Shown: positions 4,104-37,997 of the stretch, one piece after another
Numbering within the stretch: position 1 is the first letter of the stretch
Layout of the letters: each line of letters begins with the position of its first letter
Virus record (IMG/VR): IMGVR_UViG_3300042518_000947
Span: 1 to 37,997 of that record
Direction: 5' to 3' (one strand)
DNA: 37,997 bases
Source of the DNA: a virus
Notes under the pieces: generated by a model
The model's database searches: none
What the model was told of the DNA's origin: nothing
The model's input: the letters and a program-made list of their open reading frames with translations, nothing else
Translations under genes and position numbers: made by a program

Positions 4104-4895
<792 letters not shown>

Positions 4896-5685: not shown

Positions 5686-6576
5686 TCAAAGCGGCAGTTC
5701 GTCCTGGTCGACCGGCTCGCGGTCTCGCGGGTCCTCGTTCAAGCCGGTCGGCTCGGGCGGCATCTGGGGCACGGCGAGCCACGCGAGGAACTGCGCGCGC
5801 TTGCCGTTCGTCAGGGCCTTGCAGGCCCATTCCAATCGGGCGCCGTTCCATTCAGCCATCGGAGGGATGTCCGCGTCAGTAATCTCGGATACCCACGCCC
5901 TGAAGGCGGACGGGGCGGCGCCGAGGTCGGCGAGGATGCCGGCGAGGCGCTCGCGGAGGACCTTGACGTCGTGGTCCGGTGTGGGCTCGGGCGCGATGCG
6001 GTCCTTGAGGGGTTTCCGGGCGGTCGTGGTGGATGCCGGTGCGGATGGCGTGACGTCGATGACTCGGTCCACCTTGAGCGGCTCGACGCCGTCGAGTTCG
6101 TCGGGGTCGTAGATGCCGAGCATGAGGTCCGGGTATGCCGCGCGGACGATGGCCGAGAGGCATCGACTCTTGAGCATGGCGCCGGGGTATTTTTTCCAGT
6201 TGTCCTTCCCTGTCAGGCCAGCTCGCTGCGCGTCGTCCCAGGTGAACGACATCCGCATCGGCTCCGGCCACCCGACGCGCTGTGTCTCGTAGGTCGCGAC
6301 CGTGGCCGACAGCTCGACAGGCCGGAGGTACACGCAGACCGAGCGGTCGCGCATGCACAGTGCGGCCATGAGGTCGGCGCTCATCGTCGGCTTGCCCTCG
6401 ATGACGTGAACCGAACGAATCGACTGCATCGGAGCGAGCCCGAGTTCGGCGCCGAGTTGCAGCGTCAGGAACACGTCAGCCGGCCGCTGCCGGAGGTGCT
6501 TTGGCAGGAGGTCGGCGGGCGCGAGAGTCTCGGCCATGCGGACGAGGTTGGTACTTTGGTCGAGGTTGGTACTCAT
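5686..6576 (-). CDS. recT: RecT-family single-strand annealing protein
   Basis: A 296-residue protein. The RecT family binds single-stranded DNA left by a 5'-3' exonuclease and anneals it to a complementary strand. The RecT core is seen as AGxxFGLAPM-like ELGLAPMQSIRSVHVIEGKP at about residues 48-67, followed by SADLM, then the downstream W/K-rich block (DNWKKYPGAMLKSRCLSAIVRAAYPDLMLGIYDPDEL) typical of the family. The C-terminus is acidic (PVDQDELPL), as in other phage annealing proteins that contact the host SSB. ATG 6576 overlaps the exonuclease stop (ATGA) behind GAAGGGG. The pair with the YqaJ-like nuclease makes the function likely. Confidence 0.88.
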   Translation of the reverse strand: MSTNLDQSTNLVRMAETLAPADLLPKHLRQRPADVFLTLQLGAELGLAPMQSIRSVHVIEGKPTMSADLMAALCMRDRSVCVYLRPVELSATVATYETQRVGWPEPMRMSFTWDDAQRAGLTGKDNWKKYPGAMLKSRCLSAIVRAAYPDLMLGIYDPDELDGVEPLKVDRVIDVTPSAPASTTTARKPLKDRIAPEPTPDHDVKVLRERLAGILADLGAAPSAFRAWVSEITDADIPPMAEWNGARLEWACKALTNGKRAQFLAWLAVPQMPPEPTGLNEDPRDREPVDQDELPL

Positions 6577-7481
6577 GCTTTCCCCTTCGATGCAGTGACT
6601 CTGACGCTTCGTGAGATTTCGCCGCGTCGCGTCAGGCTCGCGGCGATGTCCGGGTGATTCGTGCGGAGTGTCTCAAGGTCGATTGTCTCCCTTTGCGAGA
6701 CGACCACCGATACCGTTGCGCCGCCGGCCCGGTACTTCTTGAGCATGCCGGCACTATCTGCCGCGCGCAAGAGGGATTCGCGGGCCTGCTCTTTTTGCGC
6801 GGCGGCCTCGCGTTCGGCCGCTGCGGCGTCGAGGTACGCCCGGACGGCGCCGTCGCAGTCGAGGATGGGCAGCGGGTTGCGCTCGACGTAGACGGGCACG
6901 GGCGGCTCGACGCCGTCCTGCACCGACTGCCAGAACGCACGGAGCTTCGGCACGATGGCCGAGGTGTACCAATCGAGGTCGATGGGCACGTCGACGCGGA
7001 TGGTGTCCCATGCGCCGCCGACGCGGCACACGGCGAGCGCGGCCCGCTCGATGCCGGTGACCCATGCGTAGTGGTGGAGTTGCAGGGTCCAGTCGTCCGG
7101 CACGGTTGTTGGGTCGGCCGGGTCGATGGCCTTGCGACTCATCTTGCAGTCGATGATGAAAATTCCGCCTTCATCGGACCCGAACGCATCGAGCGTCGCC
7201 CCGGCCCACGTTTCGACCGGATGCCGGATGGTCTCCTGTGCCCACGCCGGACCGTGCGGCGTGTCGGCGCCCGACAGGACGGTCCCGAGTCCGGCGGCCT
7301 CGAACTCCCGGAGGATGAACCCTTCCATGTGGTGCCCGGCTCGCATGATGGGCGATGCGCCGGACTTCGACGGGTCGAGGCCGCGCTTCTGTCGCCACAC
7401 TGCGACCGGGCCGCGGTACTCACTGACGCCGAGAATCGCCCCAACGTCGGAGCCGCCGATGTAGGTGGTTCGGTCATCCAT
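6573..7481 (-). CDS. YqaJ-type (lambda exonuclease-like) recombination exonuclease
   Basis: A 302-residue protein of the PD-(D/E)xK YqaJ/lambda exonuclease family, which degrades one strand of double-stranded DNA to feed the annealing protein. Visible motifs are TYIGGSDVGAILG near the start (family N-terminal signature), G49-xxx-E53 (GHHME), Asp98 in GATLDA, the core Asp111-x-Lys113 in IIDCK, and the following LQLHHY. ATG 7481 is preferred: AAGGA lies 8 bases upstream, while the ATG at 7490 touches its own AAGG. It starts inside the end of the preceding small gene and ends overlapping recT. Confidence 0.85.
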   Translation of the reverse strand: MDDRTTYIGGSDVGAILGVSEYRGPVAVWRQKRGLDPSKSGASPIMRAGHHMEGFILREFEAAGLGTVLSGADTPHGPAWAQETIRHPVETWAGATLDAFGSDEGGIFIIDCKMSRKAIDPADPTTVPDDWTLQLHHYAWVTGIERAALAVCRVGGAWDTIRVDVPIDLDWYTSAIVPKLRAFWQSVQDGVEPPVPVYVERNPLPILDCDGAVRAYLDAAAAEREAAAQKEQARESLLRAADSAGMLKKYRAGGATVSVVVSQRETIDLETLRTNHPDIAASLTRRGEISRSVRVTASKGKA

Positions 7482-7743
7482 GGTAGACATCCTTGATTGC
7501 TTGGATTGCCGCATTCTGAACGGCCGCGCGCAGTCGACTCCGCAACTGCAGGGCGGCCATGAACTGACCGCCCTCGTCTTCGACCGACACCGGAACCGCA
7601 TCTTCGATTGCATCCAACATGGAATCAGCCATGCTCTGGATGATGCCGGACGCCCGGCTCCGCTCGTCGGCGATGCCGTACTCTGGTGGGTCGAGCTGGT
7701 AGTCGCCCGCGATTCTGCTTCCGCCGATGGTCACGAAACGCAT
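7474..7743 (-). CDS. Small protein of unknown function in the recombination operon
   Basis: An 89-residue protein with a GGGAG ribosome binding site 6 bases before ATG 7743, which starts one base after the XRE stop. The first 40 residues are polar; the rest (about 33-89) looks all-helical with a pattern of Ala/Ile/Leu and charges, and may dimerise. No cysteine pairs or catalytic motif is seen. It lies between the repressor-like gene and the exonuclease and overlaps the latter, so it probably acts early, perhaps as a recombination accessory. No family is recognised. Confidence 0.65.
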   Translation of the reverse strand: MRFVTIGGSRIAGDYQLDPPEYGIADERSRASGIIQSMADSMLDAIEDAVPVSVEDEGGQFMAALQLRSRLRAAVQNAAIQAIKDVYHG

Positions 7744-7744
7744 G

Positions 7745-7954
7745 TCACACTCCCTTCATCAGTAGCACCACGGGTACGCCCAAGGCGCGCGCCATGGCGG
7801 CGATGGTTTCCGGCGTCCATCCACGGTGGCCCAGTTCAAGGGCCGCGACGGCGGACTGCCGGGTGTTGAGACGGCCTGCCACAATCTCTTGCGTCAAGCC
7901 GAGGTCAGTGCGGAGTTGCCGCACGTTTGCGCTGATTTGTTCGTTTGCAGTCAT
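7745..7954 (-). CDS. XRE/Cro-type helix-turn-helix repressor-like protein
   Basis: A 69-residue protein that is essentially one HTH_3 domain: helix 1 SANVRQLRTDLG, helix-turn-helix LTQEIVAGRLNTRQSAVAALELG, then PETIAAMARALGVPVVLLM. Such proteins bind operators as dimers. The ATG lies 6 bases after a -10 box with no ribosome binding site, so the message appears leaderless. It is first in the leftward operon with exonuclease and recT, and the control region with three repeats lies immediately upstream, so autoregulation is likely. It has no dimerisation or cleavage domain, so it is more Cro-like than CI-like. Confidence 0.85.
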   Translation of the reverse strand: MTANEQISANVRQLRTDLGLTQEIVAGRLNTRQSAVAALELGHRGWTPETIAAMARALGVPVVLLMKGV

Positions 7955-7960
7955 GGGGTG

Positions 7961-7989
7961 ACGGTAAGGCCGGTGCGGATATTCGTCAA
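7961..7989 (-). promoter_or_regulatory. Leaderless promoter of the leftward early operon
   Basis: On the minus strand: TTGACG (7989-7984), 17-base spacer, TACCGT (7966-7961), then 6 bases to the ATG at 7954. The start codon falls at the expected transcription start, so the mRNA would be leaderless. Confidence 0.7.
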
Positions 7990-8051
7990 GCGGATTTCGG
8001 CGAAAAATGAATCAGCGGGCATGGCCGAGAAATCCTTGACGCGGATTCACG
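7975..8051. promoter_or_regulatory. Candidate operator repeats in the divergent control region
   Basis: Three related sequences: GCGGATATTCG (7975-7985), GCGGATTTCG (7990-7999) and GCGGATTCACG (8041-8051). The first two flank the -35 box of the leftward promoter, and the third directly follows the TTGACG of a possible rightward promoter. A regulator bound here could control both directions; the XRE protein or the HTH protein at 8563 are the candidates. Confidence 0.5.
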
Positions 8052-8064
8052 AACTGCGGACGAT
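8036..8064 (+). promoter_or_regulatory. Possible rightward early promoter
   Basis: TTGACG (8036-8041), 17-base spacer, GACGAT (8059-8064), about 26 bases before the ATG at 8091, with GGAGG in between. The -10 box is imperfect. A similar pair, TTGACG-N17-GATGAT, occurs at 10373-10401. Confidence 0.35.
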
Positions 8065-8090
8065 GGGCGGGCGCATCGGAGGCGCACGGT

Positions 8091-8399
8091 ATGAGACACG
8101 ACTGGTTCTGGACAGGCATGGCATTCGCTGCAGGGTTCGCGTGTGCGGTCCTCGTCGGGGCTCGCAACGGGGAGCAGATGGCGGAGGAGGTCGGCCGCAT
8201 CGTCGAGACATGTGAGGCACAGTGCTCGGCGATGACGACCCGGCACCAGACGGAGTGCATGGACCGATTCGAGGTGGTCGGCGATGCGCTCCGCGAACTC
8301 GGAGACCGCTGCGTGCTCAGCGTCCCCGTGGGTGACCGACTGCGCGTCACGCGGACGGTGCGCCCGATGCCGGGGGTTCCCGATGACCCGGAGAACTGA
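8091..8399 (+). CDS. Small membrane-anchored protein of unknown function
   Basis: A 102-residue protein behind GGAGG with 8-base spacing. Residues 5-24 (WFWTGMAFAAGFACAVLVGA) form a single membrane helix or uncleaved signal anchor, followed by a mainly helical soluble part with several Cys (in ETCEAQCSA, TECMDR and DRCVLS) and a basic/Pro-rich end. It is first in the rightward early operon, next to the control region. Early phage membrane proteins of this size often act in exclusion or host takeover, but nothing specific is visible. Confidence 0.6.
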   Translation: MRHDWFWTGMAFAAGFACAVLVGARNGEQMAEEVGRIVETCEAQCSAMTTRHQTECMDRFEVVGDALRELGDRCVLSVPVGDRLRVTRTVRPMPGVPDDPEN

Positions 8400-8562: not shown

Positions 8563-8757
8563 ATGAACGTCAAGCTTTTCGATTCGGCCCGTGAGCGATA
8601 CGGGCTCTCTCTCCGGGCAGTAGCCAGGCGCGTCGGCGTATCGCACGCGGCAGTTGTTTTCTGGCGGCAGGGCAAAGTGAGCCCGCGCATGGAGCATGCC
8701 AGACGTGTCGCGGACCTGCTCAACGTCGATTTCGGCGACCTCTGGGGCACCCCGTGA
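8563..8757 (+). CDS. Helix-turn-helix (XRE-like) regulator
   Basis: A 64-residue single-domain HTH protein: helix 1 FDSARERYG, HTH LSLRAVARRVGVSHAAVVFWRQG (about residues 15-37), then helices MEHARRVADLLNVDFGDLW. It resembles the DNA-binding part of Cro/CI-type and plasmid copy-control regulators. It is expressed from its own leaderless promoter and overlaps the replication gene (GTGA), so the two are co-translated. Together with the divergent XRE gene at 7745 it gives a two-regulator arrangement like an immunity or replication switch. Confidence 0.8.
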   Translation: MNVKLFDSARERYGLSLRAVARRVGVSHAAVVFWRQGKVSPRMEHARRVADLLNVDFGDLWGTP

Positions 8758-9614
8758 GTTGGCTGCGTCTCGATTCCGACTACGCCAGTGACGGCACGTT
8801 GCGCCGGTGCAAGGCCGTTCAGTGGTGGCCGCTCATCCTCTGCGCCATGAAACGCGGGGGCGGCGTCGCATCGGATGACGATATCAGCCCTGAAGTTCTC
8901 GCGGACATCGGCCAGGGCTCGGAGGACGCGGCGCGTCTCGCGGTCGAGCGGCTCAAGGCGTCGGGCAAGCTGATTGAGGTTCCGGGCGGGTGGTCAACGC
9001 CCGGATGGTCGGAGCATCAGCCGGACCCGACCGCGAGTGACCGCGCCCGCCGATACCGCGAACGGAACCGGGCCGCATCGGACGCAGCGGACGAACGCGC
9101 GTCACGGTGCGTCACGGTGACGTCACGTGATGAAACGGTGCGTCACGGTGACGTCACGGCCGAAAACGGTTCGTCACGCCAGACAGGACATACAAGACAG
9201 GACATACATACAGATCACTCCGAGAGAGAGGCGGCGGTAACAACGTCGCGCGCACGCGCGGACGACCCGCCGACCCCGCCACCGCCGACCCGGAAACCCG
9301 TGGGTGCAGTCGTGGAGGCGTTCCGGGCGACGCAGTCTGGCCGAGAGGCGATGATGGTCGCACCGAGGACGGTGCAGGAGCTCGGCGCCATGGTGGACGC
9401 CCACGGGGAGGCGACCGTCATCGAGGCGATTGGCCGGGCGGCGGATAGCTGCAAACCGCCGCTTACCCTCGCGTACCTGCGCCCGGTCGTCGAGGCAGTC
9501 GCACGGGGTGAGCCGAGAGGGAAACCGCGCGTCTCGACGACGTCGAGGCACTTCGACACGAACCGCCGAACCGAGGACTTTGGCCCGCAGCCCATGCCAC
9601 CTGGGGAGATTTGA
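8754..9614 (+). CDS. Phage replication initiation (replisome organizer, O-like) protein
   Basis: A 286-residue protein. The N-terminal domain (residues 1-80: WLRLDSDYASDGTLRRCKAV, then ISPEVLADIG, AVERLKASGKLIEVPGGWSTPGW) is a winged-helix of the kind seen in phage replisome organizers. A basic stretch RARRYRERNR follows. Residues about 115-165 are low-complexity because the DNA there holds repeats (9099-9208). The C-terminal part (VVEAFRATQSGREAM onward) is helical and may contact the helicase or its loader. The next gene encodes a DnaC-like loader, the O-P/DnaD-DnaC style order. GTG 8754 overlaps the HTH stop. Confidence 0.7.
   Translation: MSWLRLDSDYASDGTLRRCKAVQWWPLILCAMKRGGGVASDDDISPEVLADIGQGSEDAARLAVERLKASGKLIEVPGGWSTPGWSEHQPDPTASDRARRYRERNRAASDAADERASRCVTVTSRDETVRHGDVTAENGSSRQTGHTRQDIHTDHSEREAAVTTSRARADDPPTPPPPTRKPVGAVVEAFRATQSGREAMMVAPRTVQELGAMVDAHGEATVIEAIGRAADSCKPPLTLAYLRPVVEAVARGEPRGKPRVSTTSRHFDTNRRTEDFGPQPMPPGEI
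9099..9208. other. Candidate replication origin: iterons inside the initiator gene plus tandem 14-mers
   Basis: Six GTCACG units start at 9101, 9111, 9122, 9142, 9153 and 9173, so spacings are 10, 11, 20, 11 and 20 (whole helical turns). Within them a 24-base segment is perfectly repeated (9104-9127 and 9135-9158, 31 bases apart) and contains the palindromes GTCACGGTGAC and GTGACGTCAC. Next come two tandem perfect copies of AGACAGGACATACA (9181-9194, 9195-9208), the most A-rich stretch nearby and a candidate unwinding element. An origin within the initiator gene is known for lambda O. Confidence 0.65.
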
Positions 9615-9617
9615 GCG

Positions 9618-10376
9618 ATGGTCGAGGAGTTGCAAGCGGTCGTGGCCGAGATGATGGCCACCATCAAGGTCGAGCCGGCGAAACCGCTACAGGTCGTGAC
9701 CGGCATCGTCGGCGACTACTGCGTCCGCACCGTGACCGGCCGATGCGGCGCAGGGTGCGACGGTGGGTTCACGCGAGTCCAGCGGGGAGGGTACGAGGTC
9801 GTCAGCCCATGCCGGGAGTGCGGCCCCATCATGTCGGCTGCGCGGAGGTACAATGCAGCCCGTTTCCCGGCCGAATTCGCCCGGGTGCGGGAGGAGTGGC
9901 GGTATCACCCTACCCTGGACGCCTGCGAGGCCGTGGCGGGCGACGTAGCGGCCGGGAGGGGCAGGGTGTGGTACGGGCCGACCGGGACCGGCAAGACCTG
10001 GACCGCTGCGGCCGTCGGGCTCGCCCTTGTCGAGCGCATGCCGGTCCGGTGGCTGCATTGGCCATCGCTCGTCGCGGCACTGAAAGACGAGTGCGGGGGC
10101 GGCGGGCAACTCGGGGCGGTCATCGCGTCTCGCGTCGGGTCGACCGGCGTGCTCATCGTCGATGAACTGTGCGGCCGGTCGACGGACTTCGAAGGCGAGA
10201 TTGTCGAGCGGGTCATCGGGACCCGTGCCGAGTCGTCGCCGCTCATCGTCACCACGAACCTGACGGCGGAGAAGGCACGCGATTACGTCGGTGACCGGGT
10301 GTGGTCGCGACTCGGGCGGGCGTGCCGCGTGGCCGAATTCGGCGGAATCGACCGGCGGGCCGCAAAATCAGGTTGA
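9618..10376 (+). CDS. DnaC-like helicase loader ATPase
   Basis: A 252-residue AAA+ ATPase of the DnaC/IstB type. Walker A is GPTGTGKT at residues 120-127 and Walker B is VLIVDE at 178-183, followed by a sensor 1 block (SPLIVTTNLT) and an Arg-rich end (VWSRLGRACRV) fitting sensor 2/arginine finger. The N-terminus carries a four-Cys candidate zinc site (GRCGAGC and SPCREC), as in other phage loaders. The expected role is loading the host or phage replicative helicase at the origin in the upstream gene. GGGGAG precedes ATG 9618. The order initiator then loader supports the call. Confidence 0.85.
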   Translation: MVEELQAVVAEMMATIKVEPAKPLQVVTGIVGDYCVRTVTGRCGAGCDGGFTRVQRGGYEVVSPCRECGPIMSAARRYNAARFPAEFARVREEWRYHPTLDACEAVAGDVAAGRGRVWYGPTGTGKTWTAAAVGLALVERMPVRWLHWPSLVAALKDECGGGGQLGAVIASRVGSTGVLIVDELCGRSTDFEGEIVERVIGTRAESSPLIVTTNLTAEKARDYVGDRVWSRLGRACRVAEFGGIDRRAAKSG

Positions 10377-11463: not shown

Positions 11464-12062
11464 AGACCGTCCGACTCATTTTCAGCGACGAGATGGCCCG
11501 CGCTGTCGTCTCGGGCCGCAAGACGGTCACGCGGCTGCCGGTGATGCCGCAGCCCGAGGGCATGCATGTCTCAGACGAGGGCAATGTCCGGGTTCGACTG
11601 CTTGACTGGCGCGGGCGCTGGATGTTCGACTCATACGTAGCAAAGCACTTTGCATCGACCGGCGACTTGCTCATCGGGCGGGAGTGCTGGGCGCCGAACG
11701 ACGGGCACGAACCGTTATACCGTGCCACCGATGGCGAGGTCGGATGGCGACCGCTCTCTGGGTGGCGCCCCTCCATCCACATGCCCGACCGCGCGGCCCG
11801 CATCCGCCGCCGGGTCGTGTCGGTCACGGTCGAGCGGCTGCAGGACATCAGCGAGGCCGACGCGGTGCGGGAGGGTGTCGAGCGCGATGAACGCGGGTGG
11901 CTGAACCCGCGACGCAACCGGGCGAACTCGACCGCCACGGTGCATTCCGCGCGGCAGGCGTTCCGGCTGATGTGGGATGACGTCTACGGGTCGAGGGGGC
12001 TTGGGTGGGACGTCAACCCGTGGGTCTGGCCCATCGAGTTCGAAGGGGTGAATCATGGGTGA
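11460..12062 (+). CDS. ASCH-like domain protein (phage morphogenetic-protein-like)
   Basis: A 200-residue protein. The pattern LIFSDEMARAVVSGRKTVTR near the start, GDLLIGRECWAP, then GWRPSIHMPDRAARIRRRVVSVTVERLQDISEADAVREGV and the C-terminal FRLMWDDVYG with NPWVWPIEFE matches a common phage/prophage family related to ASCH domains. ASCH folds bind RNA or modified nucleobases; the phage family has no proven activity. It lies directly before a DUF5131 gene, overlapping it by 8 bases, an arrangement that suggests joint function. Its 3' end carries the ribosome binding site of that gene. Confidence 0.7.
   Translation: MKTVRLIFSDEMARAVVSGRKTVTRLPVMPQPEGMHVSDEGNVRVRLLDWRGRWMFDSYVAKHFASTGDLLIGRECWAPNDGHEPLYRATDGEVGWRPLSGWRPSIHMPDRAARIRRRVVSVTVERLQDISEADAVREGVERDERGWLNPRRNRANSTATVHSARQAFRLMWDDVYGSRGLGWDVNPWVWPIEFEGVNHG
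12042..12054 (+). promoter_or_regulatory. Conserved extended ribosome binding site, copy 2
   Basis: GAAGGGGTGAATC before ATG 12055, inside the 3' end of the ASCH-like gene; one G shorter than the copies at 10409 and 27447. Confidence 0.55.
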
Positions 12063-13014
12063 CAAGACCGGAATTTCGTGGACCGACGCCACATGGAATC
12101 CGCTGCGCGGGTGCTCCAAGGTTAGCCAGGGGTGCAAGCACTGCTACGCCGAGACGATGGCCGCGCGCTTCTCTGGACCCGGGCAGCCCTACGAGGGCAC
12201 CATCCGAGATGGACGCTGGAGCGGGCTGATTCGGCTCGTGCCGGAAAAGTTGAACGAGCCGCTCCACTGGAGGCGACCGCGGCGCATCTTCGTCAACAGC
12301 ATGTCCGACCTGTTTCACGACGGCGTGCCGTTCGAGTTCATCGCGGCCGTCTTCGGAGTCATGGCCGCGTGCCCGCAGCACACGTTCCAGGTGCTCACGA
12401 AGCGGCCGGCGCGGGCGCTGGAGTTCTTCCGGTGGGCGGAGGGCAACAACCATTCCCACCCTGAGACGATCTGCCTGCATTACTCCCGCGCGTACACTGC
12501 CGCGCCGACGCCCGGGCGCTACTCGTGGCCCATCCCCAACGTCCACCTCGGCGTGTCCGTCGAGGACCAGGCTACGGCAGACGAGCGCATTCCGCTTCTG
12601 TTGCAGAGCCCGGCGGCGGTGCGGTGGGTGTCGTACGAGCCGGCGTTGGCGGCGGTGGACTTCTCGGCCTACATATGGAGTCCGCCGGACGAAGACCCGC
12701 GCGATGTCGGATATGAGTATGGGCCGTGTCCGGCGTATCTCGAATGGGTCATCGTCGGCGGCGAGTCCGGCCCGAACGCGCGGCCATTCCACGTGCAGTG
12801 GGCGCGCTCGACGGTCGCGCAGTGCAAGGCTGCGGGCGTGGCCTGTTTCGTCAAGCAGATGGGGGCGAACGTCGAGTTGCCGCCCGACGAGATGGAGCGG
12901 ATGACCGGGCACCGCACGACGACTCACCGATGGAGGCTCAACGACAAAGCCGGAGCCGACCCGTCCGAATGGCCCGAAGACCTGCGCGTACAGGAGTTTC
13001 CGCATGTCCCCTGA
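12055..13014 (+). CDS. DUF5131 / phage Gp37-Gp68 family protein, radical-SAM-like Cys motif
   Basis: A 319-residue protein. The start TGISWTDATWNPLRGC, followed by Cys20-x6-Cys27-x2-Cys30 (GCSKVSQGCKHCYAE), is the signature of DUF5131 (Gp37/Gp68). The three-Cys motif resembles a radical SAM iron-sulfur cluster site, but activity is unproven. Further family blocks are RRIFVNSMSDLFH, QVLTKRPAR, PNVHLGVSVEDQATADERIPLLL, WVSYEPAL, WVIVGGESGPNARPFHVQWAR and CFVKQMGA. The partner TcmP known beside some members is not present. The setting between ASCH-like and acetyltransferase-like genes hints at nucleic-acid modification. Confidence 0.85.
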   Translation: MGDKTGISWTDATWNPLRGCSKVSQGCKHCYAETMAARFSGPGQPYEGTIRDGRWSGLIRLVPEKLNEPLHWRRPRRIFVNSMSDLFHDGVPFEFIAAVFGVMAACPQHTFQVLTKRPARALEFFRWAEGNNHSHPETICLHYSRAYTAAPTPGRYSWPIPNVHLGVSVEDQATADERIPLLLQSPAAVRWVSYEPALAAVDFSAYIWSPPDEDPRDVGYEYGPCPAYLEWVIVGGESGPNARPFHVQWARSTVAQCKAAGVACFVKQMGANVELPPDEMERMTGHRTTTHRWRLNDKAGADPSEWPEDLRVQEFPHVP

Positions 13015-16556: not shown

Positions 16557-16849
16557 GTGCCAAAATGCCGATTTCCGATGCTGTGGCACTGGTCGAGTCG
16601 TGGGGCTTCAAGCCGCACGACCTGCGCCGCGAGTGGTCGGCGACGATTGACGGGCTCGACGTCGTGGTCGAGTGCGTTCCGTGCGCGGGAGTTCGGCGGT
16701 TCGAAGTCCGCATGAACGGCATGCTCGCGGGTGTCGGCGTCAACCCGGATGACGCGATGCGCGATGCGGTCCGCGCCATTGAGCGCACCCGGCGCAAGTT
16801 CGGGATATTGGCGAAGACGTTCGGCAAGTTCGCAGGGGTCGACGGGTGA
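16553..16849 (+). CDS. Protein of unknown function, paralogue of the preceding gene
   Basis: A 98-residue protein starting at a GTG that overlaps the previous stop (GTGA); an in-frame ATG at 16565 is possible. It shares the layout of the previous protein: N-terminal helix with W-GF, a central beta pair, and a C-terminal helix with P-x-x-A-x-R. It ends with an additional basic tail (RTRRKFGILAKTFGKF) that could touch DNA or the terminase. Its stop overlaps the large terminase GTG. Confidence 0.6.
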   Translation: MSAKMPISDAVALVESWGFKPHDLRREWSATIDGLDVVVECVPCAGVRRFEVRMNGMLAGVGVNPDDAMRDAVRAIERTRRKFGILAKTFGKFAGVDG

Positions 16850-36444: not shown

Positions 36445-37997
36445 TCAGAAGAGCGAAAGCTGGGACTTCGCGGATTCGAGATTGCGGACGGCCTGGCGAA
36501 AGTAGCTCGTCTTGAGTTCCACGCCAACAAACCGCCGCCCCATCTTGATTGCTTTGAACCCCTCCGAACCGATGCCTGCGAACGGGGACAGGACGAGATC
36601 GCCCGGCGCCGACCATAGGTGGATCGCTCGTTCGATGACCTGGAGTTGAAGCGGGCAGATGTGGCGCTCGTCTTCGTGTTCGCGGGCGCTCATATATTGG
36701 AGCGTGTCCGACGGGTTGATGTCCATCCACACGGGCGACGCATACCGCTGCCACATGCCTACCGGCAGGTCATCATCATCTCCGGTATGTGTGACGGGGG
36801 TGGTGTTCTGCCCTGGCTTGCGCATGGTGACGAGATAGTCGGCGATGCCCTGCCGCGACATGCACGAGTCTTTCTTGATTTGCTTGTGCAGCAGTCCGAG
36901 CGCCTTGGTGCGCTGCATCGCCGTAACCGGATCTTTCCAGATGCAGACTTCGGAGTGATAGATCCATCCATCCTCGACGAACATGCGGATCAGTTCTCCG
37001 CGGAAGTCCGTTATGCCGATGAAACCGTCGCGTTCCTTCGATGTCGGCAGGTTCATGCAGTGGAAGCTGAGGAGTCGACCGGGCATCGTAACGCGGAGAA
37101 GTTGGCGCACCAGAAACCGGAAGTGATCGTAGAACTCCGAATGACTGCGGCAGTTGCCCATGTCGCGGTCGGATGCACTGTACGTGTAGAGGCTGGCGAA
37201 CGGTGGCGAGAACACAGAGTAGCCGATTGAGTCGGATGGCATCCGAGAGACGGTCTCGACACAGTCGCCATGGTGCATCGTCCATCCGTCTCCGGACACG
37301 ACCGACTCCGAGTATGCCGCATCAGTCGCATTGGACGCATTTTCGATCTCGGCCATCATCCCTCCTCGCATCTTCGTGACCATCTGGGAAACCATCTCGT
37401 CGGATGCTGCCTGTTTCTTCTTGATGCTTTCGAGCACGAGGATTTCGGCGTCCGAAGTGACAATGTGGACGTCGACATCGCAAGCCTGCCCGAATCGCCA
37501 CTGGCGGCGGACCGCTTGATAGAACTGCTCGTAACTGTGCGACAACCCGACGAACACCATGCAGTGTGACTGCTGCCAGTTCATGCCAAATCCCGCGATT
37601 TTCGGCTTGGTGACGAGTACTCGCACAGTCCCATCTGAGAACCCCGACATGGTTGCGACTTTCGCATCGTCTGTGGTTGCGCCGGATACCTGCGCGGCCC
37701 CGCCAATGGCGGACGTCAGTGCGTCGCCTTCGTCGTTCAGTTCACACCACACGATCACCTGTTCATCTGTCGAGTTGGCGATACCTGCGGCCTTGTCGAC
37801 CCGCGCGGCCAGTGTCGACCTCCGCGCAGCGCGCTGTTCGTTGAGCGATGCGGCGGGTGCCCCGAACAGATCCCCGTCGCGCTTGATGTCCGATGCGACG
37901 GTGTGGGTGTGGATTCGCAGTTCAGGCAACGAATACCCATCGTCGTCGAATCCAATGTCAGACGGGCGCCGAATCATCATCGCCCACGATGCAACCC
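36445..37997 (-). CDS. Helicase-DNA methyltransferase fusion (partial, N-terminus outside window)
   Basis: The frame runs open to the window edge past the first ATG at 37980, so the N-terminus is missing; at least 517 residues are present. The visible N-terminal part is the end of an SNF2-type helicase: VRVLVTKPKIAGFGMNWQQS (motif V), then VFVGLSHSYEQFYQAVRRQWRFGQ (motif VI with arginine fingers). A linker leads to a methyltransferase: motif IV FSPPFASLYTY and, further on, motif I LSPFAGIGSEGFKAI, with VGVELKTSYF after it. Motif IV before motif I is the beta-class order for N6-adenine or N4-cytosine methylation. It may protect phage DNA or act as a translocating methylase. Confidence 0.8.
   Translation of the reverse strand, partial: VASWAMMIRRPSDIGFDDDGYSLPELRIHTHTVASDIKRDGDLFGAPAASLNEQRAARRSTLAARVDKAAGIANSTDEQVIVWCELNDEGDALTSAIGGAAQVSGATTDDAKVATMSGFSDGTVRVLVTKPKIAGFGMNWQQSHCMVFVGLSHSYEQFYQAVRRQWRFGQACDVDVHIVTSDAEILVLESIKKKQAASDEMVSQMVTKMRGGMMAEIENASNATDAAYSESVVSGDGWTMHHGDCVETVSRMPSDSIGYSVFSPPFASLYTYSASDRDMGNCRSHSEFYDHFRFLVRQLLRVTMPGRLLSFHCMNLPTSKERDGFIGITDFRGELIRMFVEDGWIYHSEVCIWKDPVTAMQRTKALGLLHKQIKKDSCMSRQGIADYLVTMRKPGQNTTPVTHTGDDDDLPVGMWQRYASPVWMDINPSDTLQYMSAREHEDERHICPLQLQVIERAIHLWSAPGDLVLSPFAGIGSEGFKAIKMGRRFVGVELKTSYFRQAVRNLESAKSQLSLF

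Follow-up and report, generated by a model that had tools for sequence, protein, structure and literature searches.

A candidate theta-type replication origin embedded in the initiator-like gene of an uncultivated high-G+C phage

It is proposed that the theta-type origin from which this phage replicates lies within its initiator gene, at positions 9101-9208 of the viral record IMGVR_UViG_3300042518_000947, together with low-stability DNA extending to about 9220; we put the probability of this reading at about 0.88. The whole record, called the window here, comprises 37,997 nt of viral DNA with about 69% G+C. Repeated candidate binding sites lie within the initiator-like gene, a low-stability candidate DNA unwinding element (DUE) is adjacent to them, and the gene for a helicase loader is next door. 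The design, an initiator-borne origin, is of an already known kind; what is new is the lineage, which has a binding-site sequence of its own.

The early region and its initiator-like gene

The candidate origin belongs to a group of genes comprising an HTH pair, RecE/RecT, an initiator-like gene and a gene for a DnaC-like loader, which together look like a typical temperate-phage early region:

5686-6576, minus strand: RecT-like annealing protein (PHROG 561, 2.3e-35)
6573-7613, minus strand: RecE-like exonuclease (PHROG 434, 4.4e-49)
7745-7954, minus strand: divergent HTH repressor-like gene (PF01381, 5.3e-10)
8563-8757, plus strand: Cro/CI-type HTH protein, directly 5' of the initiator gene (PF01381, 1.4e-10)
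8754-9614, plus strand: initiator-like gene, 286 aa, GTG start (PHROG 2447 match)
9618-10376, plus strand: DnaC-like helicase loader, IstB/DnaC AAA+ ATPase (PHROG 50, E=5.3e-19; PHROG 3277, E=2.7e-18; PF01695, 8.7e-11)

The two HTH genes are a cI/cro-like pair, the product of the 8563-8757 gene being a likely early-operon regulator, and the PF01695 match of the 9618-10376 product lies above the cut-off, which points to a putative AAA+ DnaC-like loader. Four further observations concern other parts of the window. Between the divergent HTH genes (7954-8091) a TTTCGGCGAAA-like symmetry, found by eye and unlike the origin dyads, is a possible repressor operator. About 38 copies of a degenerate CGTACC-like hexamer at 4635-4864 form the highest-scoring tandem repeat (159) in the window; they lie within overlapping ORFs in which they would encode (PV)n or (GT)n, and the GC skew goes negative there. 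At the end of the record an ORF at 36445-37980 (minus strand) fuses a helicase C-terminal domain to an N6/N4 DNA methylase; G+C is lower there (58-64%), and this part was possibly acquired recently. A DUF5131 protein is encoded at 12055-13014 (PF07505, 7.5e-81), and a similar ORF is found near the loader in the record G001 (L016).

The initiator-like protein has a conserved N-terminal part (about aa 1-113) and a conserved C-terminal part (about aa 177-254) separated by a divergent linker, and it is in the linker portion of the gene that the origin repeats are located. Its match is PHROG 2447, "replication initiation protein" (E=2.9e-4), with DnaD-like families scoring weaker. Pfam and NCBIfam searches with this protein returned no match, nor did a comparison with PF09681 (Phage_rep_org_N); the test for a Phage_rep_org_N/DnaD-like relationship gave weak hits to PHROG 10469 (E=0.011) and PHROG 186 (E=0.04), and hhalign against 13 replisome organizers gave colinear but weak alignments (E=0.02/0.01, probability 2-4%). 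An O-like PHROG is absent among the initiator matches up to E 0.1; the candidate origin is taken to work like lambda ori, and we do not file its initiator as a member of the lambda O family. The AlphaFold model of the initiator, built from three sequences, has a pLDDT of 48 and values below 50 for aa 115-180, a fold too poor to judge. Foldseek matches of this model, many of them winged-helix proteins, all had E above 1 and none was significant; they were left unused because of that pLDDT.

Iterons, dyads and the tandem 14-mer

The features of the candidate origin are as follows:

9101-9178, plus strand: iteron array of six GTCACG, starting at 9101, 9111, 9122, 9142, 9153 and 9173
9104-9127, plus strand: 24-nt direct repeat ACGGTGCGTCACGGTGACGTCACG, copy 1, perfect, read in frame as R-C-V-T-V-T-S-R
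9135-9158, plus strand: ACGGTGCGTCACGGTGACGTCACG, copy 2, perfect, 31 nt on, read as T-V-R-H-G-D-V-T
9110-9122 and 9141-9153, unstranded: odd dyad CGTCACGGTGACG inside the 24-nt repeat, half-site offset 6
9117-9126 and 9148-9157, unstranded: palindrome GTGACGTCAC inside the 24-nt repeat, half-site offset 5
9181-9208, plus strand: tandem 14-mer AGACAGGACATACA x2, perfect at 9181 and 9195, candidate DNA unwinding element

The preliminary description of this DNA had reported six GTCACG units facing one side of the helix, a perfect 24-base block containing two palindromes and repeated 31 bases apart, and a perfect 14-base tandem directly after the array, and all of these were recovered at their exact positions. 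The units are spaced 10, 11, 20, 11 and 20 bases, and their helical phasing is pronounced (R=0.95 at 10.5 bp per turn, p~4e-4 against random non-overlapping spacings). Two GTGAC, at 9117 and 9148, are minus-strand half-sites and bring the array to eight half-sites (GTCAC/GTGAC) in all. GTCACG shows no excess in the window as a whole (59 copies vs 55.6 expected), and six of its copies lie on one strand within 78 bp; apart from the hexamer tract at 4.6-4.9 kb, none of the other 80-bp stretches listed holds a non-repetitive 6-mer more than three times. Exact copies of CGTCACGGTGACG or GTGACGTCAC are found nowhere else in the window. When the gene was redrawn 1000 times with synonymous codons for the same protein, half-sites per 80 bp reached at most 6 (8 observed) and the longest near repeat at most 17 nt (24 observed). 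The half-site cluster exceeds both the synonymous-codon and the spacing nulls and is far from chance.

By nearest-neighbour calculation, no 28-bp or 40-bp stretch of the 38 kb record is less stable than the tandem 14-mer. It had earlier been described as A-rich against a G+C-rich genome, and A+T indeed makes up 53% of the 45 nt that follow the array, vs 32% of the initiator-like gene. The codons of the 14-mer region are also rarer than those of any other 10-codon window in the genes scored; AGA, ATA and ACA make up 0.4%, 1.5% and 3%, respectively, of their amino acids' codons, and the joint codon probability of the region, 10^-10.9, is below that of every one of 20,000 synonymous draws. No repeat appears in the protein, because neither period, 31 nt or 14 nt, is a multiple of three and both run out of frame; the 24-nt repeat encodes two different peptides, since its copies, 31 nt apart, are read in two frames. 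The out-of-frame periods, the rarest codons and the lowest stability indicate that it is the DNA rather than the protein that is constrained at the repeats, as had been suggested for the linker at the outset. A DnaA-trio-like spacing was sought by eye in the 14-mer and none was seen. Cumulative GC skew, one of the checks put forward in the preliminary description, climbs through the region without a turning point and lends no support.

A relative with altered half-sites

No DNA similarity to the window was found in the annotated phage collection, and tblastn of the initiator against phages returned nothing. Scans of viral and genome contigs, run with the single initiator sequence and with an initiator alignment, found two records only, G004 and G006, and a search with the loader alignment recovered the same two. 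They had been reached through a terminase search and are near-identical, and therefore count as one independent relative lineage; in another terminase relative (L008) an initiator match is absent. The initiators of G004 and G006 are 53 and 52% identical to that of the window over aa 2-259 (51% overall) and differ from it in linker length, and a loader gene occupies the same place in G004, its product being 35% identical to the window's loader.

At all eight half-sites, on both strands, G004 carries GTAAC/GTTAC in place of GTCAC/GTGAC. The geometry is retained: its dyad CGTAACGGTTACG has a half-site offset of 6, as in CGTCACGGTGACG, its palindrome GTTACGTAAC an offset of 5, as in GTGACGTCAC, its plus-strand sites are phased (spacings 21, 11, 10 and 20; R=0.96, p~0.002), and in each of the two phages 9 nt separate the last half-site from the GACAGGACA repeat. 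The 14-mer tandem is nearly letter-perfect in the relative while the iterons seem to have changed specificity: 26 of its 27 positions are identical, the best-conserved 27 columns in a gene that is 59% identical, and conserved residues use identical codons in 7/7 cases within the tandem vs 54/118 elsewhere (Fisher p=0.005). In G004 the tandem is only the fifth least stable 40-bp site in 19.8 kb, the sites ahead of it being other, probably intergenic, ones. A search of the viral collection with the 14-mer tandem pattern returned G004 and G006 only; a shortened pattern added one record, apparently Tsukamurella phage TIN2, in which the single copy was judged a chance match.

Covarying half-sites next to a fixed 14-mer are the pattern to be expected if a binding protein and its sites had co-evolved beside a conserved unwinding element, and at the level of sequence the comparison with G004 is the best evidence for the origin reading. 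Conserved linker amino acids with diverged DNA repeats had been named as an outcome that would count against an origin, and the opposite is seen in the relative. The repeats had also been considered specific to this phage, which holds only in part, as the 14-mer is shared with G004 and G006 and GTNAC clusters are also seen in the initiator genes of several other phages.

Precedents, alternative readings and a proposed mechanism

The closest precedents of the window's candidate origin are those of the lactococcal phages Tuc2009 and r1t, of lambda and of SPP1. The replisome organizers of TP901-1 and Tuc2009 bind direct repeats in their own genes, which act as ori (PMC8965321). In the Tuc2009 rep gene, whose GenBank note reads "contains origin of replication", the linker holds 11-bp repeats and, after them, 15-bp A-rich tandems, and r1t orf11 likewise has an 11-bp x3.6 repeat and then a 15-bp x2.7 A-rich tandem in the linker, in a gene order of RecT, initiator (orf11) and DnaC-like loader. 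Within this P335 group (Tuc2009 Rep2009/ORF16, TP901-1 ORF13 and r1t ORF11-ORF12), Tuc2009 and r1t show the linker anatomy of the window, with repeats preceding A-rich tandems. However, the iteron sequences of these phages are unrelated to those of the window and form no GTNAC clusters, whereas the window has half-site dyads, 69% G+C, RecE/RecT on the other strand and an initiator too diverged for family models. The lambda/Stx ori lies in the middle of the initiator gene O, with inverted-repeat iterons bound by dimers, an adjacent A+T-rich, strand-asymmetric opening region and the loader gene next door (PMC5043065, PMC7466680). The window shares with lambda the placing of the (here candidate) origin inside the initiator gene, the adjacent putative opening region and the neighbouring loader gene. 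In lambda, by contrast, the iterons number four and are 19 bp long, the A+T tract spans 40 bp, and a tandem 14-mer has not been described; no sequence relation between the window's candidate origin and lambda was found. The lambda loader P is not known to be DnaC-like. The lambda-like origin originally suggested stands as far as the initiator-borne design is concerned, but the nearest precedents in anatomy are Tuc2009 and r1t. In SPP1, oriL lies in gene 38, with direct repeats within the initiator gene and a DUE, and the helicase loader is gp39 (PMC6316719). SPP1 also has a second origin, oriR, whereas the window has no second copy of the dyads, and no protein relation of the window to SPP1 was found.

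Thirteen replisome-organizer genes, sampled by similarity to the Phage_rep_org_N (PF09681) protein of phage Arian, were inspected for comparable repeats. GTNAC clusters are present in the linkers of five, not all independent (Butyrivibrio phage Arian, Streptococcus phages Bonnie and Javan331, satellite Javan99 and Campylobacter phage CJLB-5), with codon-shuffle p from 0/200 to 0.035; a further linker cluster occurs in bajarodcaudo virus 3, outside the Phage_rep_org_N family. All six clusters are followed by an A-rich, T-poor coding strand, and in phage Arian GTCACG recurs at 11-bp steps before (TAGATA)n. The DUE units of the Phage_rep_org_N genes with GTNAC differ from the window's, and their likeness to the window lies in DNA anatomy, with at most a putative protein relationship to its initiator. 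These clusters are a lead, not a law, because the motif was chosen after the window had been viewed and 8 of the 13 genes are without it. Two other candidate initiator-borne origins were noted along the way. The O-like gene of bajarodcaudo virus 3 (L024, 1057-2001) contains a GTCACAAAGTGG-type 12-mer x4.8 and then an A-rich tract, with a loader-like gene directly downstream, and a hypothetical replication gene of the Actinoalloteichus plasmid pGBA129-24a (L025, 1394-2266) carries a perfect mid-gene 22-bp x2.5 repeat and is followed by genes for an ATP-binding loader-like protein and a DnaB-type helicase.

The same DNA could be an operator array, at whose dyads a Cro/CI-type regulator (from 8563 or 7745) or the initiator itself controls early transcription with no role in replication. 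The two HTH genes close by and the resemblance of the dyads to operator half-sites speak for such a function, which we nevertheless consider unlikely, as no exact copy of the dyads exists between the regulator genes or elsewhere in the window, as they lie within coding DNA next to a low-stability tandem for which an operator has no use, and as initiator genes of other phages show the same arrangement. The chance that the repeats were born by slippage and are retained merely as a flexible, low-complexity linker seems very slim: the region is indeed a linker, its length varies between relatives and the model has a pLDDT below 50 for aa 115-180, but neither the 31-nt nor the 14-nt period keeps the reading frame, the half-sites covary on both strands in the relative, and the tandem combines the rarest codons among the genes scored with identical codons at all of its conserved residues.

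Plasmid iteron arrays can titrate initiators, and packaging sites are carried on phage DNA, usually at terminase genes, so that, on general grounds and not from any result obtained here, a packaging, recombination or incompatibility/titration site for the initiator has also to be weighed. We regard it as hardly probable, since the terminase gene, the usual place for packaging, is at 16846, about 7 kb from the array, since unwinding better suits a low-stability tandem, and since titration would add to an origin function and not replace it. An origin in the initiator gene, as the preliminary description had it, is supported by the linker position, the phased dyads, the low-stability tandem, the rare codons, the loader and the covariation.

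By analogy with lambda, SPP1 and Tuc2009 (PMC5043065, PMC6316719, PMC7466680, PMC8965321), we propose that the initiator, probably as dimers, would bind the phased GTNAC dyads and that bending or wrapping of the array would strain the DNA, upon which the adjacent tandem 14-mer would melt under the strain; the initiator and the DnaC-like loader would then put the host replicative helicase onto the exposed strand. It is conceivable, if on balance doubtful, that the tandem 14-mer is more than A+T-rich filler and acts sequence-specifically in unwinding or in helicase loading, being recognised in duplex or in single-stranded form, in which case the A-rich, T-poor 14-18-bp tandems beside the initiator-gene iterons of Tuc2009, r1t and Arian would be its counterparts in a shared two-part origin code.

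For an uncultivated phage lineage of high G+C, the analysis provides a candidate origin defined at the sequence level. It also uncovers a natural experiment, in which a one-base-pair switch of the half-site (GTCAC to GTAAC) at all copies has left dyad geometry, phasing and the unwinding repeat unchanged, and which makes it possible to test directly which residues of the initiator determine iteron specificity and whether or not the DUE repeat is read by sequence.
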